Of a stretch of 64,000 nt of DNA, positions 7,562 through 22,210 are shown one piece after another (position 1 is the first letter of the stretch; the number at the start of each line of letters is the position of its first letter). Source of the stretch: Pseudobdellovibrionaceae bacterium (GTDB taxonomy: Bacteria > Bdellovibrionota > Bdellovibrionia > Bdellovibrionales > Bdellovibrionaceae); assembly GCA_947449255.1 (NCBI GenBank), contig CANFQX010000002.1, positions 186,001 through 250,000 on the forward strand, read 5' to 3'. The position numbers and the translations under genes are program-made. Below the pieces are notes generated by a model. That model ran no database searches and was not told the DNA's origin. It saw only the letters and a list, made by a program, of their open reading frames with translations.

Positions 7562-9493
7562 ATGAATCATTCTGTTTTAATGGCCCTCGTTGTTCTGAGT
7601 CCTTTTGTTGGTTTTCTAATTAACGGGCTAAGATATAAAAAGCATTCTGGCAATGTTGCTGGAGGCATAGCAACTCTTGCGATTGCCATCTCATTTGTCT
7701 CATCAATTTTGTTGGTTATCGACCTTATCGGTATGCCTTCTGAAACAAGACGAATTGCAATTAGTTTTTTTGAATGGATCGCGGTTGATAAACTAAGAGT
7801 CAATGCTGGATTTGTAGTCGATCAAATCAGCGCCATTATGATTTTAATTATTACCGGAGTCGGAACATTAATTCATATTTTCTCTATTGGTTACATGCAC
7901 CACGATAAGGGTGTAGCAAAATATTTTGCTTACCTGAACCTGTTCATCTTTAATATGCTGCTATTAGTTTTAGGCGACAGCTTATTGGTTATGTTTGTAG
8001 GCTGGGAAGGTGTGGGCTTGTGTTCGTATCTTTTAATTGGTTTCTGGTTTACAGATTCTGAAAAAGCAGCTGCTGGAATGAAGGCTTTCATTACCAATCG
8101 CGTAGGTGATGCGGCTTTCCTACTTGGCATGTTCATTCTATTTATGAGCTTTGGGACACTTAATTTTCATGAGTTAAATGCTTTAGCACCAACTGTGGCT
8201 GAAGCGTCATGGATGGGTTCAGTGACTCTTGGCACTTTGATGTTATTCATTGGTGCAACAGGTAAATCGGCACAGATTCCACTTTATGTCTGGCTTCCTG
8301 ATGCCATGGCTGGCCCGACTCCAGTTTCAGCACTTATACATGCTGCGACCATGGTGACTGCCGGTGTCTATATGATTGTGCGATTGAATCCATTATTTTT
8401 AGCAGCACCAAATACTTTGATGGTTATTGCTATCATAGGAGCAGCGACTGCTGTTTTGGCTGCGACTATTGGCATGACCCAATGGGATATCAAGAAAGTA
8501 CTGGCCTATTCTACAGTTTCTCAGTTGGGCTATATGTTTCTTGCATGTGGTGTTGGGGCTTTTGGAGCCGCGATGTTTCACTTGATGACCCATGCATTTT
8601 TTAAAGCCCTGATGTTTTTAGGTTCAGGCTCAGTGATTCATGCAATGCATGAAGAGCAGGACATAAGAAAGATGGGTGCATTGAGGAAATTTTTGCCGAT
8701 CACTCACATCACATTTTTATTGGGTTGGCTAGCAATCATAGGTATTCCTCCTTTTGCTGGATTTTTTTCCAAAGATGAAATTTTAGCCTATGCATTCCAT
8801 TCGCCACTCGGATCAACATGGTTGTGGGCCGCAGGCGCCCTAGGTGCAACTTTGACAGCATTCTATATGACTAGATTAATGGCATTGACCTTTTGGGGAA
8901 AAAGCCGTGTGCCGGCCAAAACTCATCCCCATGAATCACCAGTATCTATGACTCTGCCATTGATCGTGCTAGCTGTTCTTTCTGTCATTGGCGGCTGGAT
9001 CGGTATTCCACACGTCATCGGAGAGCATCTTGGTGACGTCCCAAATATTTGGGAACATTGGTTGCACCCTTTGATTCGAGAAGTACCAAACATGACCCAT
9101 ATGGATCCTTCGACTGAGTGGGCTTTGATGGGGACTTCGGTTGGGCTTGCATCTATATCCGCATTTATCGCTTATAATTTCTATGTGACATCACTTGATT
9201 TACCAAAGAAATTTGCTGAATCCATAAAGCCAATTTATAATGTCATTTATAATAAATATTTTGTTGATGAAGCGTATTTTGCTGGGGTGATTAACCCTTT
9301 GGTTAACGTAAGCAAAAACCTTTGGTTTTATTTTGACGTTAATTTTATAGATAAGTGCACTTATGTTATTGCGGATCTAATTAAGGGCATGGGCAATCTT
9401 TCACGCTCTCTTCAAACTGGGAATTTGCAACAATATGCTATGTACATTGGTATTGGAATTGTTGTTGTTCTTTCATTTGTGATCACGAGGTAA
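7562..9493 (+). CDS. nuoL: NADH-quinone oxidoreductase subunit L
   Basis: NuoL is the distal antiporter-like proton-pumping subunit of complex I. The 643-residue product has the family length and about 16 hydrophobic segments. It carries the antiporter signatures MFVGWEGVGLCSYLLIGFW, QIPLYVWLPDAMAGPTPVSA, IHAATMVTAGVYMIVR and KKVLAYSTVSQLGYMF. The C-terminal region contains the long polar lateral-helix region and a final hydrophobic anchor, as in true NuoL. This separates it from stand-alone Mrp antiporter subunits. It is flanked by nuoK (6 nt) and nuoM (4 nt). Confidence 0.98.
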   Translation: MNHSVLMALVVLSPFVGFLINGLRYKKHSGNVAGGIATLAIAISFVSSILLVIDLIGMPSETRRIAISFFEWIAVDKLRVNAGFVVDQISAIMILIITGVGTLIHIFSIGYMHHDKGVAKYFAYLNLFIFNMLLLVLGDSLLVMFVGWEGVGLCSYLLIGFWFTDSEKAAAGMKAFITNRVGDAAFLLGMFILFMSFGTLNFHELNALAPTVAEASWMGSVTLGTLMLFIGATGKSAQIPLYVWLPDAMAGPTPVSALIHAATMVTAGVYMIVRLNPLFLAAPNTLMVIAIIGAATAVLAATIGMTQWDIKKVLAYSTVSQLGYMFLACGVGAFGAAMFHLMTHAFFKALMFLGSGSVIHAMHEEQDIRKMGALRKFLPITHITFLLGWLAIIGIPPFAGFFSKDEILAYAFHSPLGSTWLWAAGALGATLTAFYMTRLMALTFWGKSRVPAKTHPHESPVSMTLPLIVLAVLSVIGGWIGIPHVIGEHLGDVPNIWEHWLHPLIREVPNMTHMDPSTEWALMGTSVGLASISAFIAYNFYVTSLDLPKKFAESIKPIYNVIYNKYFVDEAYFAGVINPLVNVSKNLWFYFDVNFIDKCTYVIADLIKGMGNLSRSLQTGNLQQYAMYIGIGIVVVLSFVITR

Positions 9494-9497
9494 GTTT

Positions 9498-11114
9498 ATG
9501 ATATTAAGTACTCTGGTTTTTCTACCTCTCTTGTTTGCTTTTATCGTTTTGATCTGGCCGAACCTAAAGACTGTTAGACATCTCGCCCTTGGCTTGTCTA
9601 TAGCGGAGTTTATAGTCAGTCTTGGAATGCTTGAGAATTTTAATCCCCAATCTGCCAGCTTGCAGTTTGTCGAAAAGTTCAATTGGATTGAACGGTTTGG
9701 AATCCAGTATTTTTTTGGTGTTGATGGAATTTCGTTATGGCTAGTTCTTTTAACAACCTTTTTGACCCCGGTTATCATTTTGGCAAGCTGGAGCTCTATC
9801 AGCGAGAAGTTAAAAGGTTTTCATATATGTTTGTTTATTTTGCAAACAGCGATGCTGGGTACTTTTTTAGCCATGGATGCAGTCTTTTTCTATGCATTCT
9901 GGGAGCTCTCTTTAGTTCCAATGTACTTTATGATTGGAATCTGGGGTGGTGCGCGAAGAATTTATGCCACAGTTAAATTTTTCATATTCACTATGGCCGG
10001 ATCGGTCTTAATGTTGGTTGCTATCGTTTACATGATGTATCTGACTCAAGAGGCGACTGGTCACATGAGCGCTAGTCTTCTTGAATTCTACAAGTTGAAA
10101 ATTCCATTTGTGGGTGGGACCTTCTTTAGCGTGCAAACTCTTTTATTCTTTGCCTTTGCTCTAGCCTTTGCAATTAAGGTTCCTGCTTTTCCGGTTCACA
10201 CCTGGTTGCCCGACGCCCACGTTGAAGCACCAACACCTGGTTCTGTGATCCTTGCTGGGGTTATGTTGAAAATGGGCACGTATGGATTTATGCGCTGGGT
10301 GATCCCATTATTTCCGGAGGCCTCAGAATATTGGGCTTGGTTGTTCATGCTGATTGGAACTGTCGGTATCATTTATGGTGCCCTAGTTGCAATGGTCCAG
10401 CCTGATGTTAAAAAATTAGTAGCCTATTCTTCAGTTTCACACATGGGGTATATCTTAGTAGGGCTGTTTGCATTCAATGCCTATGGTTTTAGCGGTGGAT
10501 TATTTCAGATGTTGAGTCATGGAATTTCTACGGGAGCTTTGTTTATTCTGATCGGTATGATCTACGAAAGGACTCATTCAAGAGAAATTTCAAAGTATGG
10601 CGGACTCGCTGGTGTTTTACCAATATTTACCATTTTCTTTTTTATCATCACTTTGTCTTCCATAGCGGTTCCAATGACAAACGGCTTTGTTGGTGAGTTT
10701 TTGATTCTCATTGGGACTTTCAAGGCACAGCCCGCTTTTGCATATTTTGCAGTTTCAGGTGTTGTTCTGGGAGCAGTTTACATGCTGTGGATGTTTAAGC
10801 GAGTGTTTTTTGGAGCCCAAGGTGAACTCGTTCGGGATGAGAAACATCCGTTGAAGGATCTTAATGCAAGAGAAATTGCAGTGTTAGTTCCCATGGTAGC
10901 CATGGTATTTATTATGGGATTGGCTCCCAATTATTTTCTTAATTATTCAAAGGCAAGTATTGATAATTTAGTAAATAGTAAAAATGGCTACAGTCTAACA
11001 TTGACCGAAAATGCTCAGTCTATTTTAGATTTTGTTCCGGGAAACGCTCCGAGTGGTGCATCCGACGGTTCAGCGAATGTTTCAAAGATCACACCCGAAC
11101 AAGGGGATAACTAG
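9498..11114 (+). CDS. nuoM: NADH-quinone oxidoreductase subunit M
   Basis: NuoM is the middle antiporter-like proton pump of complex I. The 538-residue, roughly 14-helix product contains the conserved FFYAFWELSLVPMYFMIGIW, KVPAFPVHTWLPDAHVEAPT and KKLVAYSSVSHMGYILVG blocks. The last 40 or so residues (NAPSGASDGSANVSKITPEQ) are a hydrophilic tail beyond the last helix, with no family equivalent that I know. The ATG at 9498 comes 4 nt after the nuoL stop, and the nuoN ATG follows its own stop directly. Confidence 0.97.
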   Translation: MILSTLVFLPLLFAFIVLIWPNLKTVRHLALGLSIAEFIVSLGMLENFNPQSASLQFVEKFNWIERFGIQYFFGVDGISLWLVLLTTFLTPVIILASWSSISEKLKGFHICLFILQTAMLGTFLAMDAVFFYAFWELSLVPMYFMIGIWGGARRIYATVKFFIFTMAGSVLMLVAIVYMMYLTQEATGHMSASLLEFYKLKIPFVGGTFFSVQTLLFFAFALAFAIKVPAFPVHTWLPDAHVEAPTPGSVILAGVMLKMGTYGFMRWVIPLFPEASEYWAWLFMLIGTVGIIYGALVAMVQPDVKKLVAYSSVSHMGYILVGLFAFNAYGFSGGLFQMLSHGISTGALFILIGMIYERTHSREISKYGGLAGVLPIFTIFFFIITLSSIAVPMTNGFVGEFLILIGTFKAQPAFAYFAVSGVVLGAVYMLWMFKRVFFGAQGELVRDEKHPLKDLNAREIAVLVPMVAMVFIMGLAPNYFLNYSKASIDNLVNSKNGYSLTLTENAQSILDFVPGNAPSGASDGSANVSKITPEQGDN

Positions 11115-12575
11115 ATGAATTTTTCAATTGGATTACGAGATCTATTGTTAGTATCGCCAATGATTGCGATGTTTATTTTAAGCTTAATACCATTGACGGT
11201 AAAAGTTCTTAGAGGAAATCAAGAACAGAACTCCTATGTTACTCTAACTCAAGGTTTATTGGGAATTGTAGCAGCGGTAGTGCTTGTTGCAGTGTTTGGT
11301 GGCGCAGGTAAAACGGCATTTAATAACAGCTTAATTTTTGATGGTATCACTCAGTTAATAAGCATTATCGCTTTGGTTTCAACAGGCGTTGCGATGATCA
11401 TGATGTATGAGAATCCAGCTACGACAGGGAAACAATTTTCTGAATTGATATTTTTGACAATGTCATCAGCGGTAGGAATGTTAATATTGGTGGCAGCTGT
11501 TGATTTATTGATGGTTTTCATTGGTCTGGAGATGATGTCACTGGCACTTTACCTTATGATTGCAATGAGCCATGAGGAAAAATTATCCAAAGAAGCTGCC
11601 CTAAAATACTTCATACTTGGATCTTTTGCCTCGGCAATATTCCTCTATGGTGTGGCATTTATATTTGGATCGACTGGCGGGACTAATATTTTAGGATTTA
11701 TGGAAAAAGCTCCAGAGCTAATTCAAACCAGCCGTATTTTTCTGTTTGGGATTTCTTTCGTTATTCTTGGATTTTGTTTTAAAGTTTCTATTACTCCCTT
11801 TCACGCTTGGACACCTGATGTCTATCAGGGTGCACCCACACCGCATACAGCATTTATGGCAACTGCCGTAAAAGCTGTTTCATTTGCAGCTTTTTTGCGA
11901 GTGATTGCGACGAAGTCTTTAATTGGTTCCGAGCATCTCTTTGATATTTTGCAATGGCTTGCAGTGATCACAATGATTGTTGGAAATACCGCCGCAATTT
12001 TGCAGAATAATCTAAAACGGACGATCGCATATTCATCAGTAGCTCACTCGGGTTACCTTTTGGTGGGTGTTATAACAGCTGGAATCAGCGATTCAGGAGT
12101 CTTTGGGGCATCAAGTGTAATCTTTTACCTTATCGGCTATTCGCTTATGACCTTGGGTGCATTTGCAATTGCAAGTATGCTTGAGCGCTCTGAAGATCAT
12201 ATAGTAAATATCGATGACCTAGCTGGACTTGCAAAGCAACGTCCTATGTTGGCCTTGTGTCTTACAGTGTTCTTGCTTTCACTGGCAGGAATACCTCCTA
12301 CGGTAGGCTTCTTTGGTAAGTTCTATTTATTTAATGCTGCCATTGGAGAGGGACTTTTGTGGCTTGCAATATGGGGCGTACTGAATTCTGTCGTTGCAGT
12401 TTACTATTATTTACGTCCAATTGTTGTGATGTACATGAAGGATGGCGATGCTCAAATATCTAATCGGTCTTTGAATGCAACGACTGCGGTTGTTGTAGTG
12501 ATGGCAGCAGCAATCATACTGATGGGTGTCTTTTCAGGCCCATTCTTTAGCATCGTCGAGAGAAGCCTTTTATAG
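11115..12575 (+). CDS. nuoN: NADH-quinone oxidoreductase subunit N
   Basis: NuoN is the third antiporter-like pump of complex I, closest to the quinone module. The 486-residue product has about 14 hydrophobic segments. It has the family blocks LEMMSLALYLMIAMSHEEK, KVSITPFHAWTPDVYQGAPT and KRTIAYSSVAHSGYLLVG, plus the late SLAGIPPTVGFFGKFYLFNA motif. It starts at the base after the nuoM stop. It is the last gene of the operon, and a hairpin terminator follows 21 nt downstream. Confidence 0.97.
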   Translation: MNFSIGLRDLLLVSPMIAMFILSLIPLTVKVLRGNQEQNSYVTLTQGLLGIVAAVVLVAVFGGAGKTAFNNSLIFDGITQLISIIALVSTGVAMIMMYENPATTGKQFSELIFLTMSSAVGMLILVAAVDLLMVFIGLEMMSLALYLMIAMSHEEKLSKEAALKYFILGSFASAIFLYGVAFIFGSTGGTNILGFMEKAPELIQTSRIFLFGISFVILGFCFKVSITPFHAWTPDVYQGAPTPHTAFMATAVKAVSFAAFLRVIATKSLIGSEHLFDILQWLAVITMIVGNTAAILQNNLKRTIAYSSVAHSGYLLVGVITAGISDSGVFGASSVIFYLIGYSLMTLGAFAIASMLERSEDHIVNIDDLAGLAKQRPMLALCLTVFLLSLAGIPPTVGFFGKFYLFNAAIGEGLLWLAIWGVLNSVVAVYYYLRPIVVMYMKDGDAQISNRSLNATTAVVVVMAAAIILMGVFSGPFFSIVERSLL

Positions 12576-12596
12576 TCTAAATTTTTTTGATTATTT

Positions 12597-12632
12597 TTAA
12601 AAGGCTGCTGGAGGATCTCCACAGCCTTTTAA
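12597..12632. terminator. Bidirectional terminator between nuoN and the patatin gene
   Basis: An 11-bp inverted repeat (12597-12607 against 12622-12632, core AAAAGGCTG/CAGCCTTTT) has a second short stem TGGAG/CTCCA in its loop. It separates two convergent genes and overlaps the patatin stop codon, so it can end transcripts from both sides. T-runs flank it on both strands. Confidence 0.75.
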
Positions 12633-13828
12633 ATTTCATGAAGCCTTAGTGCATTGAGTCCTGATTTAAATCCAACTTTTACAATTCGTCCCAAGATTTC
12701 TGGGTTTAAACTAAAGTGATCAACAAAAAACATTTCGTAATTTTGTGGCCGTGGGGCTATGTAAATATAATCGACTTCAGGTCGGTGATTTACTTTTTCC
12801 CTAATTATTTGCAGTAGTTTTTCTTTATGCGCCTCTGGCAACTTGGCTTGCCGGAAATAGTTGGCCACTGAATCGTATATACCTGAGATGTCATTTTGAT
12901 TTTGTATATGTTTAGCAATTTTTTGCTGAATGACCTGATAGAGAGCTTGATTCAATATCAAAGGAATTCCGTATTTATCTAGAGAACCCATCTCGGGAGT
13001 ATAATGGTAAGGCTGTATTGAATACGAGGAGATGACCAAGTCAGCTCCATTATCGGTGGCCACGTGAGTTGACAACGTGTCGCGGATCTCCCCATCGTAA
13101 TAGAAAATTTCCTTACCATCAGGTCTTGTAATTCCATAAGGTGAAAAAACTGGGGGTAGGGAAGTTGAAGCTGCCACAGATTCGCTGATTGTTGAATAGT
13201 TAATATATTTAGTGCTGCCAGTTTTGTAAGAGTTTGGAAAATTCCCAAAAATAGCTTTTCTAGAATGATTGAGCTGTGTTCCAACAATGTACAGCTCAAC
13301 ACCAAGTCTTGCGAAGTCATTGTCTAAGAAGACTTCCCTACGCAAATAGCTTTCAATTCCTTTTGTTGAAAAGAGACCATTCAATTTAAGTCCATTTTTA
13401 ATCAGAGATTCAATTCCACCGGTGACAATATTTTTTTCCAAAAGTGAGCGGGGTATAAACCGCAATAGACCACTCGAATTTAAGTTAAAAATATCCCTAT
13501 AAGTAATGGATTTGAGATACCGCAAGTCAGTTTTGTCAAAGGTAGGGGTTTTGCCAGAGCCAATTTGAAATGCATTGATGAGGGATTCAATTGGGTATCC
13601 AGCACCCAAAATCGAAGCTACAAAGGCCCCGGCACTTGAGCCCACATAAAGACGAATCGTCATGGGGTCGTCATCATTAAAATTTTGTCTGACCATTTCT
13701 TTGGTGCCGCCAGCGAACTTAAAGCCCTTTTCTTGAAGGGCAAGGCAGACACCTATATGAAATGCCGCAGCTTTAATGCCGCCACCACTTAGAACTAGTG
13801 CAACTTTTTTTTTGTCTTTTATACGCAT
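12629..13828 (-). CDS. Patatin-like phospholipase
   Basis: A 399-residue patatin-fold lipid acyl hydrolase. The N-terminal oxyanion loop is LVLSGGGIKAAAFHIG. The nucleophile elbow GSSAG puts Ser65 in place, and the catalytic aspartate is in YYDGE (Asp245). Together they make the Ser-Asp dyad of the family. There is no signal peptide, so the protein is either cytoplasmic or exported by another route. Patatin-like enzymes act on membrane phospholipids and serve in lipid turnover or as effectors, and the sequence does not decide between these roles. The ATG at 13826-13828 lacks a clear Shine-Dalgarno. The 5' side faces the DnaA-box region shared with the gene at 14252. Confidence 0.9.
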   Translation of the reverse strand: MRIKDKKKVALVLSGGGIKAAAFHIGVCLALQEKGFKFAGGTKEMVRQNFNDDDPMTIRLYVGSSAGAFVASILGAGYPIESLINAFQIGSGKTPTFDKTDLRYLKSITYRDIFNLNSSGLLRFIPRSLLEKNIVTGGIESLIKNGLKLNGLFSTKGIESYLRREVFLDNDFARLGVELYIVGTQLNHSRKAIFGNFPNSYKTGSTKYINYSTISESVAASTSLPPVFSPYGITRPDGKEIFYYDGEIRDTLSTHVATDNGADLVISSYSIQPYHYTPEMGSLDKYGIPLILNQALYQVIQQKIAKHIQNQNDISGIYDSVANYFRQAKLPEAHKEKLLQIIREKVNHRPEVDYIYIAPRPQNYEMFFVDHFSLNPEILGRIVKVGFKSGLNALRLHEI

Positions 13829-13897
13829 ATCAGTGTGAACAGTATGGATAATGAATCCTGAATGAGCAAAGAGAAATTATTTTTGTTAGAGCGATTG

Positions 13898-13909
13898 ATG
13901 AATATTCAT
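13898..13909. repeat. 12-bp perfect palindrome, operator-like
   Basis: ATGAATATTCAT reads the same on both strands. It lies 70 bp upstream of the patatin start and just before the long inverted repeat. A related decamer, TGAATACTCA, occurs at 13974-13983 and 14153-14162, and the second copy overlaps another palindrome (ATTCATGAAT, 14148-14157). The set resembles binding sites for a dimeric regulator. Confidence 0.5.
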
Positions 13910-13912
13910 TTT

Positions 13913-13967
13913 TAGTGACTATCCAAATTGACTACTCAATTTGGATAGTCAATTTGGATAGTCACTA
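13913..13967. repeat. 22-bp perfect inverted repeat with internal tandem copy
   Basis: The left arm 13913-13934 is the exact reverse complement of the right arm 13946-13967, with an 11-bp spacer. The 13-mer AATTTGGATAGTC is also repeated in tandem at 13938-13950 and 13951-13963. There are therefore three copies of the same word, two direct and one inverted. No T-run follows on either strand and both neighbouring genes point away, so a terminator role is unlikely. An operator or a DNA-structure site is more likely. Confidence 0.85.
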
Positions 13968-14016
13968 GCTAGATGAATACTCAGAACAGGCCTAGGTGTT
14001 TAAATAATTAGCATCA

Positions 14017-14091
14017 TGTGGATAACCTTTAAATTTAATGTGGATAAGTTTGGTATATCTTGTAGATAAGTATCTTTTGCAATGTGGATAA
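14017..14091 (+). promoter_or_regulatory. Helically phased array of four DnaA-box-like nonamers
   Basis: TGTGGATAA, the reverse complement of the consensus DnaA box TTATCCACA, occurs perfectly at 14017-14025, 14039-14047 and 14083-14091. A one-mismatch copy (TGTAGATAA) lies at 14061-14069. The starts are exactly 22 bp apart and all boxes face the same way, so they sit on one face of the helix. The sequence between boxes is not conserved and is AT-rich. Known DnaA boxes act in origins, in DnaA-titrating sites and in DnaA-controlled promoters. The usual origin neighbours (dnaA, dnaN, rpmH, parAB) are absent here. Confidence 0.75.
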
Positions 14092-14095
14092 TTAT

Positions 14096-14114
14096 GGGAA
14101 TTTCTTAAATTCCC
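14096..14114. repeat. Perfect 8-bp inverted repeat beside the DnaA boxes
   Basis: GGGAATTT (14096-14103) and AAATTCCC (14107-14114) are separated by three bases. The repeat begins five bases after the last DnaA box. Its small spacer and lack of a following T-run suggest a protein-binding site rather than a terminator. Confidence 0.5.
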
Positions 14115-14251
14115 CGATTAAAGTCTGGTTTTTTAGTGATTTTGGATATTCATGAATACTCATTTTGACTGAGACTGCTGCTATGGTAGGTTCTTATTAC
14201 CGACTGAGTAGGTGACCACCGAAATCGAAAAGTTTGTAAAAAGGGGATTTG

Positions 14252-14815
14252 ATGAATTCAGAGGCTTGCGGTTCATGGTTACCGCTAACGGACTACTCGA
14301 CTAAGTATCGAATTAGTATGAGTACACTCCGCCGTAGAATCAAAGCCGAAGACATTAAATTTCGATTTGATGAAGGAAAATACTTCATCATGGACGAACC
14401 AGTGAGTACCCATCAAAGAGTTAATCGCCCCTCCCTGGACAGTGAAGAGGCTTTGGTGGGTACTCATTATGGAGTATCAAGTGAGAATCAAGAAAATACC
14501 TCTGAGAGTAAATCTGAAGAAATATTAAGCAGAGCTCGTTATGCTCAAGGAATGGGCAATATGAATGAATTGGATTTTAACAATCCCGGCAGATCAAAAA
14601 ATATAAATGGAAATTTAAAAGAGCTCAGCAAAGATGAGTCTATCTTAGTTGCTGCAAATAAGCTTTTAAATGAATTAAAAATGGCCTATTCAAAAATTCT
14701 CCAAGAAAAAGAAGAGCACGTATTGCAGCTTCGAGGTGAAGTTGCAGATCTAAAAACTTTGGTTCGATTATTAGAATCAGATAATCAACGACTCAAAAGC
14801 TCAGGCGAAAGCTAA
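14252..14815 (+). CDS. Helix-turn-helix/coiled-coil protein, possible regulator
   Basis: A 187-residue protein of unknown function. Residues 10-50 (LTDYSTKYRISMSTLRRRIK, followed by FDEGKYFIMD) look like the small winged HTH of excisionases and MerR-type DNA-binding domains. A low-complexity polar middle follows. Residues 130-180 form a heptad-patterned coiled coil (NKLLNELKMAYSKILQEKEE and beyond) that could dimerise the protein. The chosen start is ATG 14252 with AAGGGG a few bases upstream. A TTG directly before it is possible but less likely. Because it lies right behind the repeat-rich control region, it may bind there (inference). The downstream peptidase gene begins 11 nt after its stop. 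Confidence 0.75.
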   Translation: MNSEACGSWLPLTDYSTKYRISMSTLRRRIKAEDIKFRFDEGKYFIMDEPVSTHQRVNRPSLDSEEALVGTHYGVSSENQENTSESKSEEILSRARYAQGMGNMNELDFNNPGRSKNINGNLKELSKDESILVAANKLLNELKMAYSKILQEKEEHVLQLRGEVADLKTLVRLLESDNQRLKSSGES

Positions 14816-14826
14816 AAGCTTTGTCC

Positions 14827-15513
14827 ATGAATTTATTAATATCATTTTTCATTGCACTTCAAGTTGTTCAAGCTGGAGAACTTCAAACCAATTCAACCTT
14901 TTCTTCGAACGCCCCACATTGGATTACGAAGGGCAGAGTTGATAAAACCACTGAACATATTCAAAGTTTTTTAGAATGGGATATTCATCGCATCACGGTG
15001 GAGTGGTATAAAGATCAAATGTCGTTCGAGAGCGCTCACCACTTAGGGCCTCATGTTCTAGCCGTGTCCAAGAAAAATGAAAATAAAGTGCTGATTGGGC
15101 CTAAGGTGACAGCTAATAATTTTGACCGTATTTTTGGTCATGAGCTTGTTCATGTCATTATTTTTCAAAAATACAAGGAATCCGTTCCGCAGTGGCTTGA
15201 AGAAGGTCTTGCAAATTTTATTTCTAAAAGTGGACCGGTCAACTATCAGTGGCTAGGTAAGCAACCTTTTCCAAAAGACATTCGTGACCTAGTCCATCCT
15301 TTTAGTGGCGATCTAGATTTGCTTCGCTATCAATATGAAGGCTCTCAGGCGCTTGCAGAAATGATTGCATCTAAGTGTGATTTAAAGAATTTGCTTCGCT
15401 TGTCTGTCGGTCGAAAGATGGAAAGCTATTTGGATACTTATTGTCGAATAAATGATTTGAATTCTGCTTATCGTAAATGGATTAAAATCAAAACGCCGCA
15501 GCCACAAAAATAA
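14827..15513 (+). CDS. Secreted HExxH zinc metallopeptidase (gluzincin-like)
   Basis: A 228-residue exported protein. The signal peptide ends near VVQA-GE. The motif HELVHVII supplies two zinc histidines and the catalytic glutamate, and WLEEGLANF about 20 residues later gives the third ligand, the arrangement of peptidase clan MA(E). The C-terminal third has two cysteines (SKCDLK, TYCRIN) that could form a disulphide in the periplasm. Substrate is unknown. ATG 14827 is preferred; an in-frame TTG at 14821 is also possible. It probably shares a transcript with the HTH gene in front of it. A hairpin terminator follows at once. Confidence 0.85.
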   Translation: MNLLISFFIALQVVQAGELQTNSTFSSNAPHWITKGRVDKTTEHIQSFLEWDIHRITVEWYKDQMSFESAHHLGPHVLAVSKKNENKVLIGPKVTANNFDRIFGHELVHVIIFQKYKESVPQWLEEGLANFISKSGPVNYQWLGKQPFPKDIRDLVHPFSGDLDLLRYQYEGSQALAEMIASKCDLKNLLRLSVGRKMESYLDTYCRINDLNSAYRKWIKIKTPQPQK

Positions 15514-15543
15514 AAAGAAACTGATTTTCACCAGTTCCTTTTT
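15512..15543. terminator. Bidirectional terminator between the peptidase gene and lon
   Basis: A 12-bp stem with one mismatch (15512-15523 against 15532-15543, core AACTG/CAGTT) has an 8-nt loop. It has an A-rich side and a T-rich side, so it can work on both strands. It overlaps the peptidase stop codon and lies just past the lon stop. Confidence 0.7.
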
Positions 15544-15565
15544 TTATTTTAATTATAATTGGGCT

Positions 15566-17974
15566 CTATGCTGCCAATCCCTTTGTTTTCTTGGGATCTT
15601 TTTTTATGCCTGCTTTTTTCGACGCAGTCACTGCGCTTCGGTCGAAAGCTACAGCGAAGACTTCATCAAGATTTTCAGCAAGGATAAAATTGATTTTATC
15701 TTTGAAAACCTTTGGAATGTCAGCCAGGTCCTTTTTGCAGGCCATCGGAATAATTATGTTCGTAATTCCGAGGTTCAAAGCAGCCAGACATTTTTCCCGA
15801 ACTCCACCAACCGGAAGGACTTTACCCTGGAGGGTGACCTCGCCTGTCATGGCGATATCATGACGTACTGGAGTGTCCGTCATTAAGCTCACCAATGCGG
15901 TAGTCAGTGTTATTCCTGCTGAGGGACCATCTTTTGGTATTGCGCCAGCCGGTAAATGAATGTGGATATCGTATTTATCAAAAAAGTCCTCTGGAATGTT
16001 TAGTTCTTCCATGTGAGCTCTTGCATAAGACATCGCTGCATGAGCAGATTCCTTCATCACGTCGCCAAGCTGACCAGTCAGGGCTAGTTGACCCTTCCCT
16101 TTCATTTTTAGTGCTTCGATGGTTAGAACTTCGCCACCAGCGGAAGTCCAAGCTAATCCTTGTACTACTCCAATTTGGCTATCGGCAAACTTGTCATCAC
16201 GGATAAATCTTGGTGCTCCCAGCAAATCAACAACACTTGTTTCATTGATTTCCATAAAGTTTTTCTCGCCCATCACAACCATTTTTGCAACCTTACGACA
16301 GACTGAACCAACTTCCCGCTCAAGATTTCGAAGCCCAGCTTCGCGAGTGTATCCAGAGATTAAAGTTTTAAGACCGTCATCAGTAAAGGTGATATTTTCC
16401 GGCGTTATTCCATTGGCTTCAATCTGCCTGCGGACTAGATGTTTCTTGGCGATAAAAAGCTTATCATTTTCTGTATAGCCAGGAATATTTAGTATTTCCA
16501 TTCGATCTCGCAATGCTGGAGGTATATTCTCAAGCACATTCGCAGTGGCTATAAAAAGTACGTTCGATAAATCGAAATCGACATTCAAATAATTATCTCT
16601 GAAAGTTGAATTCTGTTCAGGGTCTAAAACCTCAAGCATTGCAGCTGAAGGATCACCTCTAAAATCTGAACCTAACTTATCCACTTCATCTAAGACGATA
16701 ACTGGATTGTTAGTTTTTACTTGGCGTAAAGCTTGGATTATTTTTCCTGGCATCGCTCCGACATAAGTTCTGCGATGGCCGCGAATTTCAGCTTCGTCCT
16801 TCAGACCACCCAATGCGATTCGGTGATATTCTCTGCCCATAGCGCGGGCTATGGATTTTCCAAGTGATGTTTTTCCTACGCCTGGAGGCCCGCCAAAACA
16901 GAGAATAGGTCCCTTTAAGTTTGGTTTTAATTTGCGAACCGCTAAGAACTCCATAATACGTTCTTTTGCTTTTTCTAGTTCATAGTGATCTTCATCAAGA
17001 ATTTCTTTTGCTTTTGCCAAGTCAAAATGATCGTCAGTGTGTTTTTTCCAAGGAAGGTCGGCCATCCAGTCTAAGTAGGTCCTGACCATTGTAGCTTCTG
17101 AAGCGTCGGGATGCATGCGTTCAAGCCGACCAAGCTGTTTCAAAGCCTCAGCTTCTACTTGAGTTGGCATTCCTACGTTGACAAGCTTTTCACGAAGTTC
17201 TTCCATTTCCTCAGATTTTGAATCTTGTTCGCCAAGTTCGTTTTTAATAGCCTTCATCTGCTCGCGCAGAAAATATTCGCGCTGAGATTTTGACATGTCA
17301 TCTCGACCGTTGGTACCTCGAGATTTAATTTGGGCCTGCATTGTTTCAACTTCAGTAGCCAGGATATCAATAACCATTTTAAGCCTGTCACTAGTGTCGA
17401 AAGTTTCCAGAACACCTTGGGACTGCTCAACCTTGACTCCGAGATTAGAGGCTATAAGGTCTGCCACTCGACCAGGATCAGTGACATCATCTAAAACTAA
17501 GAGGATATCAGGAGACAATGGGCGACCAAGAGAAATAATGCGCTCAATGTGTTCTTTTGCAGTTCGTATGAGGGCTTCATTTTCAAGTAAGGTTTTTGTC
17601 GTTGCAAGCTCTTCAATTTTTTCAACTGCAACTTCAAAGGAAGGCGACGTCTTGACGTAGTTTTTAACTCGTCCCTTTGCTACCCCTTGGATCAGGATTT
17701 TAACCCTGCCATCAGAGAGCTTGCGCATTCTCATGATCATCGCAACAGTACCTACTGTGTAGATGGAGTCCGGAGTTGGGCTCTCCTCAGCAATGTCTTT
17801 TTGTGATGCTAAAAAGATAAGCCTATTCTTCGATAGAGCCTCTTCGATTGAGCGGATAGATGAATCACGTCCCACAAAAAGTGGAATGATCATATATGGA
17901 AAGACCACGATGTCTCTCACTGGTAGCATTGGCAAGGTCTGTGGAATTTCTAGTATTTTATCTTCAAAACTCAT
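15566..17974 (-). CDS. lon: ATP-dependent Lon protease
   Basis: Lon degrades misfolded and regulatory proteins in the cytoplasm. The 802-residue product matches the LonA layout. The N-terminal substrate domain is at 1-210 (PMLPVRDIVVFPYMIIPLFV) and a coiled-coil linker follows. The AAA+ module has Walker A GGPPGVGKTS near 366 and Walker B VIVLDEVDKL. The C-terminal serine-lysine peptidase domain has the nucleophile in KDGPSAG (about Ser684) and the lysine in GVREKC (about Lys728). The ATG is preceded by GGAGGAG. A basic tail (KKDPKKTKGLAA) ends the protein. DksA-like genes lie upstream on the same strand but are separated by a terminator. Confidence 0.98.
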   Translation of the reverse strand: MSFEDKILEIPQTLPMLPVRDIVVFPYMIIPLFVGRDSSIRSIEEALSKNRLIFLASQKDIAEESPTPDSIYTVGTVAMIMRMRKLSDGRVKILIQGVAKGRVKNYVKTSPSFEVAVEKIEELATTKTLLENEALIRTAKEHIERIISLGRPLSPDILLVLDDVTDPGRVADLIASNLGVKVEQSQGVLETFDTSDRLKMVIDILATEVETMQAQIKSRGTNGRDDMSKSQREYFLREQMKAIKNELGEQDSKSEEMEELREKLVNVGMPTQVEAEALKQLGRLERMHPDASEATMVRTYLDWMADLPWKKHTDDHFDLAKAKEILDEDHYELEKAKERIMEFLAVRKLKPNLKGPILCFGGPPGVGKTSLGKSIARAMGREYHRIALGGLKDEAEIRGHRRTYVGAMPGKIIQALRQVKTNNPVIVLDEVDKLGSDFRGDPSAAMLEVLDPEQNSTFRDNYLNVDFDLSNVLFIATANVLENIPPALRDRMEILNIPGYTENDKLFIAKKHLVRRQIEANGITPENITFTDDGLKTLISGYTREAGLRNLEREVGSVCRKVAKMVVMGEKNFMEINETSVVDLLGAPRFIRDDKFADSQIGVVQGLAWTSAGGEVLTIEALKMKGKGQLALTGQLGDVMKESAHAAMSYARAHMEELNIPEDFFDKYDIHIHLPAGAIPKDGPSAGITLTTALVSLMTDTPVRHDIAMTGEVTLQGKVLPVGGVREKCLAALNLGITNIIIPMACKKDLADIPKVFKDKINFILAENLDEVFAVAFDRSAVTASKKAGIKKDPKKTKGLAA

Positions 17975-18049
17975 ACCGCTCCTCCGCGTTTTGCGGGTTT
18001 ATTTCAGTCGCTGTTGACCCTTTCGGATTCAGCGGCGCGGAGCTTGAGA

Positions 18050-18084
18050 GAAAAAATAAAAATTAGACTGACATCCATGTCAGT
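18050..18084 (-). terminator. Intrinsic terminator of the DksA-like gene
   Basis: On the minus strand a perfect hairpin (ACTGACA, four-base loop, TGTCAGT; 18067-18084) is followed by a T-rich run (18050-18066). It lies 30 nt past the stop of the gene at 18114-18515 and upstream of lon. Confidence 0.8.
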
Positions 18085-18113
18085 GTGATTAAAAACCACC
18101 TGCAACCAGATTT

Positions 18114-18515
18114 TTACTGGTAGATTGGAGATTTGCTTTCCTGATCTTCCATGCAATCAATACAAAGGCCTGTAAAAGGTCTAGCCTGTAGTCTGCGTGC
18201 AGCAATCATTTCGCCGCAGGCTTCACACTGGCCATAAGTCCCGTCCGAGATCTTTCCAAGAGCTTTCTCAATTGAAAAAAGAGCGTTTCGGTCTCTCTCC
18301 AGAAGATGAATCGAAATGTTATTGCTTGCATCGAGAGAAGCAATTTCTGCCTCATCGCCTTGTGCTAGTGAGCTGGATTGCTCTGCCTTGAACTCATGTG
18401 ACTTATTTAATATAGAAGCCTTCTGAGACAGAAGTGATTCTCTTAAAGTATTTATCAAAAGGTCAACTGATTGACCATTCTGGTTTTGTTCGGAACTTTG
18501 TCCGGTTGTTTTCAT
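18114..18515 (-). CDS. DksA/TraR-family zinc-finger protein
   Basis: DksA-type proteins enter the RNA polymerase secondary channel and alter promoter use with ppGpp. The 133-residue product has a coiled-coil N-terminal half with the acidic tip region (GDEAEIASLD). A complete C4 zinc finger follows: Cys97 and Cys100 in YGQCEACGEMI, Cys118 and Cys121 in GLCIDC. The ATG is preceded by GGGGGG. It could be the cell's DksA or a paralogue, since Bdellovibrio-type genomes usually carry several. A second family member lies 166 bp upstream on the same strand. Confidence 0.92.
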   Translation of the reverse strand: MKTTGQSSEQNQNGQSVDLLINTLRESLLSQKASILNKSHEFKAEQSSSLAQGDEAEIASLDASNNISIHLLERDRNALFSIEKALGKISDGTYGQCEACGEMIAARRLQARPFTGLCIDCMEDQESKSPIYQ

Positions 18516-18681
18516 CTAACCCCCCGATATGATGACTACGGCCGAATATTGCTGTCTTTATTACGACTGAACTCAGTTATGTCACCTAAAAAGCAGTGCG
18601 TGACGAATAAGTAAGCAGATGTTTATCAAGATATTTCAAAATTTTAGAGATAAAAAATAAAAAATATTTTATTATTAAAAT

Positions 18682-19056
18682 TTAAAAACGCGCGAATTTT
18701 CTTTGCACTGCCTCGCGCAATTCTGCACCTTCAATACTTAAACGAGTGGAGGGAATCGCACGCAATCTCTCAATCTCAATGGGCTCAAGGGTCTCTTCAC
18801 AAATGCCATATTCACCGGATTCCAACCTTGCCAGTGCGGATTCAACTTCGAATAAATGCAATCTCATTCGATCCTGAGAGATAAGAAAAGCATGCTCTTC
18901 AATATGTGCAATCGATTGATCAGCTTCATCACCCGATTTTTCTGATTGAGAAAAAAAGATTTTTGAATTTCGAATCCTGTTTAAAAGATCTTGTTTTTGA
19001 ATCAGCAATTTTCTTTTGCACTCACTTAAAGTCTCTTCATTTAAAACATTCTTCAT
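18682..19056 (-). CDS. DksA/TraR-like protein lacking the zinc cysteines
   Basis: This 124-residue product aligns along its length with the neighbour at 18114-18515. It has a helical N-terminal half with the acidic GDEADQSIAHIEE tip and then YGICEETLEPIEIERLRAIP. Only Cys86 of the four zinc ligands remains; the others are Thr89, Ser107 and Gly110. The finger therefore cannot bind zinc in the usual way. Paralogues with fewer cysteines are known in the DksA family and can work without zinc. The start ATG at 19054-19056 has GGGGGA five bases upstream; an ATG 12 bases earlier has no such site. Confidence 0.88.
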   Translation of the reverse strand: MKNVLNEETLSECKRKLLIQKQDLLNRIRNSKIFFSQSEKSGDEADQSIAHIEEHAFLISQDRMRLHLFEVESALARLESGEYGICEETLEPIEIERLRAIPSTRLSIEGAELREAVQRKFARF

Positions 19057-19257
19057 GATGTCCCCCATGGCAATCAGTGCCTATAGGACACTTAGAGTCA
19101 TCAGTCGGGTTAAAAAAAATTTGATTATGACAACATCATCCTCATGGGACTACTTGCCATAAATCTTGTAAAAAGGTTCAACACCCATTTTGGGCACTTT
19201 GTAAAAAACTTAAACACCCTGATTCATTCTCAATTGCATATATCGATGTTTAAGCCT

Positions 19258-19273
19258 TGGCACTGAAATCGCA
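19258..19273 (+). promoter_or_regulatory. Candidate sigma-54 promoter
   Basis: TGGCAC, five bases, then TCGCA places the GG and GC pairs at the -24/-12 spacing required by sigma-54 (consensus TGGCAC-N5-TTGCA, one mismatch). It lies 106 bp upstream of the 943-codon gene and points toward it. The rest of the 322-bp gap (19057-19378) shows no other strong signal. Confidence 0.5.
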
Positions 19274-19378
19274 TTAGGTTTAAAAATGCTGGACCTATTA
19301 TGCTATGAGTGCTTTGGGCTTCAAGCATGCAAATTACCGAAGCCAAACAAAATTTGACCGATTTAGGAATTTGATAGA

Positions 19379-22210
19379 GTGAAAAAATTAAAAATTATTT
19401 ACCAATCTTATTTTAATTTCATAAGTTGTGCGCTGCTATTCAGTGCCTGTACAATATTCTTTACCCCTCATTCCTTTGCAGCAAAAGTTAAGTCAGCTGT
19501 GTGTGATCCTGTGGCTGTCGGCGCATTCACTTTATTAAATGAGTCAAATTTATCTGCGGATCATCGTTTTATATTGAGCTATGATAAGGAGGCGATGCTT
19601 AAAGGAGATGGCATAAATGTTCGCATAACCAACATTGTAACAGGCGTGCGCATCCATTTTGTCGCCAAGGCCCAGCTGGTATTTCAAGGCGCTAGTGATG
19701 ATTTAAATCAGATCATATTGCAAAGCGCTGTGGGCGATCATTCTGAGTTTTATATTTTTAAAAAAGACGGCTCTCAACTGCGAAATTTCAAGCTGTTATG
19801 GTCTAATGGCGAAGAGGAGTTCCTGAACGGTGTGAGCTTTGATTCTAAAACCAACAGATGGCTGATTGCAACGAATCTAAGAATCGTCGCCTACTCAAAC
19901 ACTCAGCAAAACTTAACCACAATCTTTGAAATACCAAACCAGCAGGGATCTGCTATTCAATGGTTCAATCAGTTTAATAAATCAGAGCCTTTTATTTTTG
20001 CAAACAATGGAAAAAATCTGCTGCTTTTTGTTTCAAAAATATCCGACACGGGCGCTAGTAGTAGCACTTTATTGAATTTTGATTCAACGACTTTTGAGAT
20101 GTTAAGGACAATTTCAATCTCAGGTCAAAGCGCACCACTGCTGGTGGACTCAAGTCATCTCGTTTTCCCATTGAGTGAGGATAATTCATATGAGGTCGTA
20201 GATATTGGATCTGGTCTAAAAAGATATTTGCGGAATGAACCAGTTGGGTCCGATGCGACAATAAGTGGTCCAAAAGTTTCTGACCTTTTGATTGGGGCTG
20301 AAGGCACTTTTGGGACTGTTTCAAATCGCGGAAAAATCCGGTACTTCAATGGAAGCCTTGGTCTTGTTTCAGAGATTGCTTTACCAAGATATAGTCAATG
20401 GGCGAAAATAGCTGTTGCAAGTGACCGCAGGAATTTACTTCTGCTTGATAGTGATCGGCTGACCACTTTTATTTATAATCTTGAGAGGAAGGAGTTTATT
20501 AGACTTCCACAGGTTTTAAATTTTCTATTAAATCGCAGTAGCCTTTCAGTTTTTGAGAACCAAATTTTTGCGCCATTATTTAATGAGCGCACCAATAAAA
20601 TATCATTGTTGAACTATCCAATTGAGAGTCAGTGTGAAAGTACTCTTCCAATTTCTAAGCAGCTCAGTGAGGTTTCAACCTTACTAAAAAGTCAAAATAT
20701 GACTTTGCTTTCTGTATTAAATAATTCACTTTCAAGAAGCAAATTTCGTAAATCTTTTGAGTCAGCAAATAATAATAGCAATTCCGATATGAGTGAATTT
20801 AAGAGATCTTTAAAGTCTTTTATTGATTCTTATTTACCAATTGAGTCCGCTTCAGACGCTGAAAATTCTTTTTTCAGAATTGATAATTTTTTCTCTACTT
20901 TCAAATCATTCTACCCAGCCTTTTCAGAGAATGAGAAAGAATTTTTTATTGATTCGGCGGCTGTCAATTTGGCTGAAAAATTTCATAAAAAGGCAGAGTA
21001 TTCAGAAATTTCGATTACGAAGATTGCAAATGTCTTTGTAGCTAATTTGAAACCAATTTTTGGTCTTTCGGCGGATCCTAAAACTGACTTTATGCTAATT
21101 AAAGATTTAGTTAGTGATCCTTCGGGCAAAACCGTACGTCCAGTGGTCATTGGAAGCCAGCCAATAATCGATGAAAATAATAGAATTTCAAAGGCCAAGG
21201 CGGGAGGTATTCAATATCATCAAGGATTTTATGTTAAAAGTGATTTCCCTCCACTGCAACTAACTGAAAATCACCCCCAGAATTTTAGCGTCGATTGGGA
21301 ATTTAACCAACAGAGATGGCAAGCCTCTGGGCAGTCTGAAATTCTGTCTCTAAGGCATTTAATAAATAAAGAAAAATCCCCGCGATATGATCAGTATTGG
21401 GCGGATAATAGCTTGGTGGGAATGGTTCTGATTAGTCCAAACCTGGGCGATCCAAAATGGCTTGTCAGGCAGTACCTGAGCTATTTTAAGGATCAAGGTT
21501 TTTCATTTGGCGACTCTAAAATGGTTTGGTCAAATAATTGGAGTTCTATAAAAGGGTTCATTCAAGGAAGTTATTTTTTTCCCAAGGATGTAACTTCGAT
21601 GAATAATACTAAAGAATGGTTTGGTAAAATGATTTCTGAAGGCTCTTTAGATTATCTAATTAAAGAAGCACATTCCGGCGGAAATAACGAAGTCGTCTTT
21701 ATTGGAAAAGTGAATTCCGTCCTAAAGGGTTTTAGAAAATTGAAAAATGGAAAAGAAGAAGTTATTTACATTGTGTTTCCAGATGCAGATTCTTTTTCTA
21801 GTTCAGTTCAAACTCCTATTACCAATCAAGAGTTCGGAACTTGGATAAGAATGCGCGAGTCGAGCTCCGCAAAGAATCAATTGATGTATATTAATGCAAG
21901 CTGCTGGAGTTCTGCAAAGGCCAGAGATGAAATTATTTCTGTGCGAAGTCCACTTTTGGTGGAAATTGCCACGGTGTATTCGTCATTAACATTTCAGAAT
22001 TCATCGCGAAATCACCTCCAAGTTTTGCTGTCGTCAATCCGCAGGGGGTTACCGTATTTAGAGATTCAAAAGAATCTTGAAGAGGTTAAGACTTTTGACG
22101 GCACCAAGAATCCCTATATTTTGCCTTCCCAGAATCAATATGACGAGAAGATATGGCAAGGACTCAGCTCTGCCTTGGACTATTCTGTTAAAGTTCTGGA
22201 GTATAAGTAG
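19379..22210 (+). CDS. Large secreted protein of unknown function
   Basis: A 943-residue protein that I do not recognise. Residues 1-35 form a long signal peptide ending near SFAA-K. Residues 40-420 are beta-rich with repeating blade-like segments (AVASDRRNLLLLDSDRLTTF), suggesting a beta-propeller. Residues 430-600 are mostly helical. The C-terminal part from about 620 is mixed alpha/beta. It contains KEAHSGGNNEVVF (His765) and LMYINASCWSS (Cys842), spaced and set like a clan CD (caspase/gingipain) His-Cys dyad; this is only a suggestion. The start is GTG at 19379 with AGGAA ten bases upstream. It has no close co-directional gene before it, and a candidate sigma-54 promoter lies upstream. 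Confidence 0.8.
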   Translation: MKKLKIIYQSYFNFISCALLFSACTIFFTPHSFAAKVKSAVCDPVAVGAFTLLNESNLSADHRFILSYDKEAMLKGDGINVRITNIVTGVRIHFVAKAQLVFQGASDDLNQIILQSAVGDHSEFYIFKKDGSQLRNFKLLWSNGEEEFLNGVSFDSKTNRWLIATNLRIVAYSNTQQNLTTIFEIPNQQGSAIQWFNQFNKSEPFIFANNGKNLLLFVSKISDTGASSSTLLNFDSTTFEMLRTISISGQSAPLLVDSSHLVFPLSEDNSYEVVDIGSGLKRYLRNEPVGSDATISGPKVSDLLIGAEGTFGTVSNRGKIRYFNGSLGLVSEIALPRYSQWAKIAVASDRRNLLLLDSDRLTTFIYNLERKEFIRLPQVLNFLLNRSSLSVFENQIFAPLFNERTNKISLLNYPIESQCESTLPISKQLSEVSTLLKSQNMTLLSVLNNSLSRSKFRKSFESANNNSNSDMSEFKRSLKSFIDSYLPIESASDAENSFFRIDNFFSTFKSFYPAFSENEKEFFIDSAAVNLAEKFHKKAEYSEISITKIANVFVANLKPIFGLSADPKTDFMLIKDLVSDPSGKTVRPVVIGSQPIIDENNRISKAKAGGIQYHQGFYVKSDFPPLQLTENHPQNFSVDWEFNQQRWQASGQSEILSLRHLINKEKSPRYDQYWADNSLVGMVLISPNLGDPKWLVRQYLSYFKDQGFSFGDSKMVWSNNWSSIKGFIQGSYFFPKDVTSMNNTKEWFGKMISEGSLDYLIKEAHSGGNNEVVFIGKVNSVLKGFRKLKNGKEEVIYIVFPDADSFSSSVQTPITNQEFGTWIRMRESSSAKNQLMYINASCWSSAKARDEIISVRSPLLVEIATVYSSLTFQNSSRNHLQVLLSSIRRGLPYLEIQKNLEEVKTFDGTKNPYILPSQNQYDEKIWQGLSSALDYSVKVLEYK

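Follow-up and report, generated by a model that had tools for sequence, protein, structure and literature searches.

A phased array of putative DnaA boxes upstream of a conserved, origin-proximal HTH/coiled-coil gene in a Pseudobdellovibrionaceae bacterium

Introduction

In Bacillus subtilis, several DnaA boxes at a time are grouped outside oriC in extra-origin DnaA-box clusters (DBCs), which are presumed to act as a sink for DnaA, and at the sda promoter of the same organism DnaA serves as a transcription factor for a gene with a possible role in coupling replication to development (PMC5295017). In Escherichia coli, boxes are concentrated round oriC, and some of them lie in DnaA-regulated promoters (PMC12371093). 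For Bdellovibrio bacteriovorus, footprinting has given the DnaA consensus NN(A/T)TCCACA (PMC5124646), and a 2023 review states that in this species neither a regulator of replication initiation nor the protein that holds the origin region at the pole has been identified (PMC11318664).

Here we describe four DnaA boxes in a 64,000-nucleotide stretch of the genome of a Pseudobdellovibrionaceae bacterium related to Bdellovibrio (the window, C2:186001-250000; positions below are those of the window unless contig C2 is named). The array is a known kind of element, an extra-origin DnaA-box cluster composed of consensus 9-mers beyond chance and outside oriC, at an unusual and informative place.

Results

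The array lies inside a 423-bp gap between a divergent patatin-like phospholipase gene (12629..13828, minus strand; PF01734, E 1.6e-17) and a plus-strand gene for an HTH/coiled-coil regulator of 187 aa (14252..14815), characterised by a structure model and homologue searches. Its four boxes are all read on the minus strand, and their starts are exactly 22 bp apart. Boxes 1 (14017..14025), 2 (14039..14047) and 4 (14083..14091) are exact matches to the perfect box, which is TTATCCACA on the minus and TGTGGATAA on the plus strand; box 3 (14061..14069) has one mismatch and reads TTATCTACA and TGTAGATAA on the two strands, respectively. The sequence-only reading of this DNA had reported three perfect boxes and one single-mismatch box in one direction, 22 bp apart, and we confirm these sites and this spacing exactly. 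It had also placed the boxes on one helical face, which is roughly right, although 22 bp amounts to 2.1 helical turns and the boxes drift by ~34 degrees from one to the next. Its judgement that such spacing is very unlikely to arise at random holds as well. Using the measured site density, the analytical expectation is ~1.1e-7 per genome for a four-site array of equal spacing (9-60) and ~3.5e-4 per genome for any arrangement of four boxes within 100 bp, and a 12-Mb Markov-3 simulation produced no arrays of three or four sites. A pattern search of the 3.21-Mb genome for the pair TGTGGATAA-N11-15-TGTGGATAA returned a single match, which is the array, and among the genome's 34 perfect copies of TGTGGATAA there is no other cluster. 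The array is thus real, beyond chance and the only one of its kind in this genome.

The gene downstream of the array is present in 134 of 141 genomes of the order, and the patatin gene was recognised upstream of it in 95 of 109 orthologues. Its product is predicted to consist of a MerR-like winged HTH (approximately residues 9-47), a disordered linker and a long C-terminal helix (128-185). This fold comes from a model built on 37 sequences (HTH domain pLDDT ~93-95 over residues 11-50), the single-sequence model being poor. The best Foldseek matches of the HTH domain are BldC and RacA, with probabilities of 0.96-0.97 but E-values of 0.12-0.24. In RacA, too, a winged HTH is combined with a coiled coil. 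Scans of Pfam and NCBIfam assigned the protein to no family, and a sequence search of the PDB gave no match. A regulator of this predicted MerR-like HTH/coiled-coil type has so far been seen only within this order. A Bdellovibrio-type HTH gene of 50% identity was also found in a MAG titled Streptomyces griseus (CALQIT020000001.1), whose organism label is probably wrong. Directly downstream of the HTH gene lies a gene for an HExxH metalloprotease-like protein (14821-15513; Peptidase_MA_2, a weak match below cut-off), and this pair is adjoined by a lon protease gene (15566-17974); two adjacent DksA-like zinc-finger/TraR-type genes follow (18114-18515 and 18682-19068). According to the 2023 review, B. 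bacteriovorus has no identified Lon-like protease that acts on DnaA (PMC11318664).

Palindromes of the form TGRNTANYCA flank the array on both sides. Of the eight copies in the gap, six lie on the patatin side (13899..13983, starting at 13899, 13916, 13929, 13942, 13955 and 13974) and are predicted operators of the HTH protein, and two abutting copies found by pattern search (14143..14162) stand directly upstream of a presumed -35 element. Across 106 orthologous upstream regions, with our own genome and G045 left out, the motif occurs 165 times compared with 2.3 in shuffles, and at least once in 85 regions, a count that is partly circular because these same regions had served to define the motif by eye. 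Despite this partial circularity, the size of the effect and its spread over the order make TGRNTANYCA a likely conserved, order-wide operator, and the HTH protein probably binds it and regulates itself. Two more copies fall within the HTH coding sequence (14403 and 14457). Genome-wide, the motif occurs 219 times compared with 139 for the reversed word. Outside the promoter cluster, it is found about once per 18 kb on the oriC contig and once per 15 kb in the whole genome, densities in which a RacA-like clustering of operators round the origin is not seen.

The putative promoter of the HTH gene is a sigma-70 type sequence, TTGACT-N16-TAGGTT (14165..14192, plus strand), which we infer from comparison with relatives, where TTGACA-N16-TANNNT stands at the aligned place; it is a weak candidate, since the consensus promoter scan did not list it. 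Between the end of the array and the presumed -35 there are 73 bp. Another conserved element, ARGTCYWG (ATCAAGGTCCTGAA in its typical form), was found in 47 of 109 HTH upstream regions against 7.75 in shuffles, for example at about -164 in L013.

The array is not a genus-wide feature, since none of the other genus members examined has it, and its 22-bp phasing is not shared by the clusters of G045 and L191 described below; the check on relatives that the sequence-only reading had proposed therefore went against a shared phased array, and an ancestral array in the genus is likewise unsupported. A CAAGGTCCTG-type element is instead present ~130-180 bp before the start codon in all 16 other distinct upstream regions of the genus. 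It was not found upstream of the gene in the source genome, where, by comparison of these regions, the DnaA array stands in its place.

Same-direction clusters of TGTGGAWNN occur upstream of the HTH orthologue in 3 of 109 cases (our own genome, G045 and L191), a cluster being at least three such sites in 150 bp, a definition chosen after our own array had been seen; these are three lineages only, and the sampled genomes are related. In G045/L205, six boxes extend from -214 to -85 of the orthologue with spacings of 19, 44, 12, 45 and 9; TGTGGAT is the same in all six and the final two bases differ, in agreement with the DnaA consensus. In L191, three boxes (TGTGGATAA, TGTGGAAAA and TGTGGATAA) lie at 0, 12 and 35 (spacings 12 and 23). 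Control sequence amounting to ~0.89 Mb yielded further such clusters only in the origin region of G045. That the clusters recur at this promoter in two further lineages speaks for a function and against chance. From these sequences, it looks as though DnaA has been recruited to this promoter repeatedly and independently, lineage by lineage; common ancestry with repeated loss may be another source of the clusters. A further same-strand DnaA-box cluster lies 1.3 kb from the HTH promoter of G045 (C24 ~74381; L205:1474), and others in that genome are at dnaN/oriC.

The array begins at C2:200017, and dnaA is at C2:168543-169034, 31 kb away. The description of the array as far from any replication gene is correct within the window and is misleading for the chromosome, since dnaA and oriC lie just this distance away outside it. 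In genomes where both genes were located, the HTH gene is ~28-41 kb from dnaA; the orthologue of G005 is at C1:3747453-3747917.

Discussion

We propose, with a probability of roughly 0.55, that the array is an origin-proximal DnaA-box cluster that controls the HTH gene and also adds to the titration of DnaA. DnaA molecules would bind next to one another on the phased boxes and thereby alter transcription of the HTH/coiled-coil gene, whose product would act as an autoregulator by binding the flanking palindromes. Since replication reaches the region shortly after initiation, the boxes would also draw DnaA away from oriC. In this way the HTH/coiled-coil gene would serve as a readout of DnaA activity. 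The array lies well upstream of the presumed -35, a position that points to looping or to competition with the operators on either side more than to simple blocking of the promoter; whether DnaA would activate or repress is not predicted with confidence. Several observations are consistent with control of the promoter. The boxes match the footprinted Bdellovibrio consensus, three of them perfectly, and the DnaA of the source genome, which shares 86% identity with that of G005 in the same genus, is nearly identical to it in the C-terminal 120 residues that include the DNA-binding domain. Same-direction clusters recur at the HTH promoter and are rare in the control sequence, the array replaces the element that the rest of the genus carries, and both the regulator and the operator motif show order-wide conservation. 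Against this, the array is missing from all other genus members examined, its phasing is kept in neither G045 nor L191, and titration near the origin could equally yield recurrence at one locus.

It is also possible, although we consider it rather unlikely, that the array is purely a buffer, in which the boxes bind DnaA, are duplicated early and lower the level of free DnaA, any effect on the HTH gene being incidental. Perfect boxes are indeed concentrated near the origin, on which ground the array may act as a sink too, in line with what is described for boxes near the origin of E. coli (PMC12371093) and presumed for the DBCs of B. subtilis (PMC5295017). Contig C2, which carries oriC and makes up 9.7% of the genome, holds 13 of the 34 perfect boxes, compared with 1 of 24 copies of the reversed control, and still holds 10 of 31 (p 5e-4) when the array, the genome's densest cluster of perfect boxes, is set aside. 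Across four complete relatives (G005, G012, G002 and G004; G011 and G022 were not counted), 29 of 141 boxes are within 160 kb of oriC, compared with 0 of 57 control words, an enrichment that is in part oriC itself. Pure titration leaves unexplained why three lineages have clusters at this one promoter, and with a shared orientation. Across the genus, perfect TGTGGATAA boxes are concentrated in ~160 kb round oriC, much as in E. coli.

More doubtful is that the sites are variant half-operators of the HTH protein or of another regulator, without a role for DnaA. TGGATA, which is contained in TGTGGATAA, also makes up half of the TGRNTANYCA palindrome; among the operators of L006 and L007 there is a variant TGTGGATAGCC; and BldC, to which the HTH domain is similar in fold, recognises direct repeats. 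In the orthologous upstream regions, however, TGGATA is preceded by TG in only 5 of 91 cases (our own and G045 excluded), which is background, whereas TG stands before the TGGATA position in every box of the array. Box 3, moreover, breaks TGGATA while retaining TGT, and the G045 box TGTGGATTA likewise breaks TGGATA. The TG-prefix counts disfavour operator half-sites and, together with the behaviour of box 3, make DnaA boxes the better reading of these sequences.

The sequence-only reading had offered four functions. Two of them, a DnaA-controlled promoter and a titration site, still stand, while the unusual origin and the iterons of another initiator fail. That the array is a replication origin (main or secondary) or the iterons of an integrated plasmid-type replicon is highly improbable: several direct boxes within a stretch of 62-72% AT and a period of 22 bp, typical of iterons, would fit, but the cumulative GC-skew minimum of contig C2 (169,054) is at dnaA and away from the array, which rules out an origin; oriC-type boxes are already located in the dnaA-dnaN gap; the four 22-bp units are alike mainly in the 9-bp box, which speaks against plasmid-type iterons; and the ORF list for 9000-20000 contains no rep gene, with chromosomal synteny conserved.

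A DnaA-box cluster at the promoter of a conserved origin-proximal regulator offers a concrete gene and DNA site for testing. The promoter itself is conserved, and its second element varies by lineage, being CAAGGTCCTG in most of the genus and DnaA boxes here. As a more distant speculation, to which we give little weight, the HTH protein could be an undescribed, order-wide regulator of the origin-proximal region in Bdellovibrio-type predators whose promoter has been rewired to DnaA in some lineages, coupling initiation to predatory growth or to polar anchoring of the origin.

Compared with known systems, the HTH domain has its nearest fold neighbours in the MerR-like winged HTH proteins BldC and RacA (PMC5859096), from which the protein differs in having no sequence-level match in the PDB and in its 10-bp TGRNTANYCA palindromes. 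Origin anchoring of the RacA type uses many sites round the origin, where TGRNTANYCA is not enriched. The concentration of boxes near the origin resembles that in E. coli, whereas the array, in a different phylum, is one tight group and not a set of dispersed sites (PMC12371093). It is alike to the DBCs of B. subtilis in grouping several boxes outside oriC (PMC5295017), and unlike them in that four evenly phased, same-direction boxes stand amid the predicted palindromes of another regulator. As at sda, DnaA may act here as a transcription factor, a role that we propose from the sequence, and its target would in this case be a MerR-like HTH/coiled-coil regulator.
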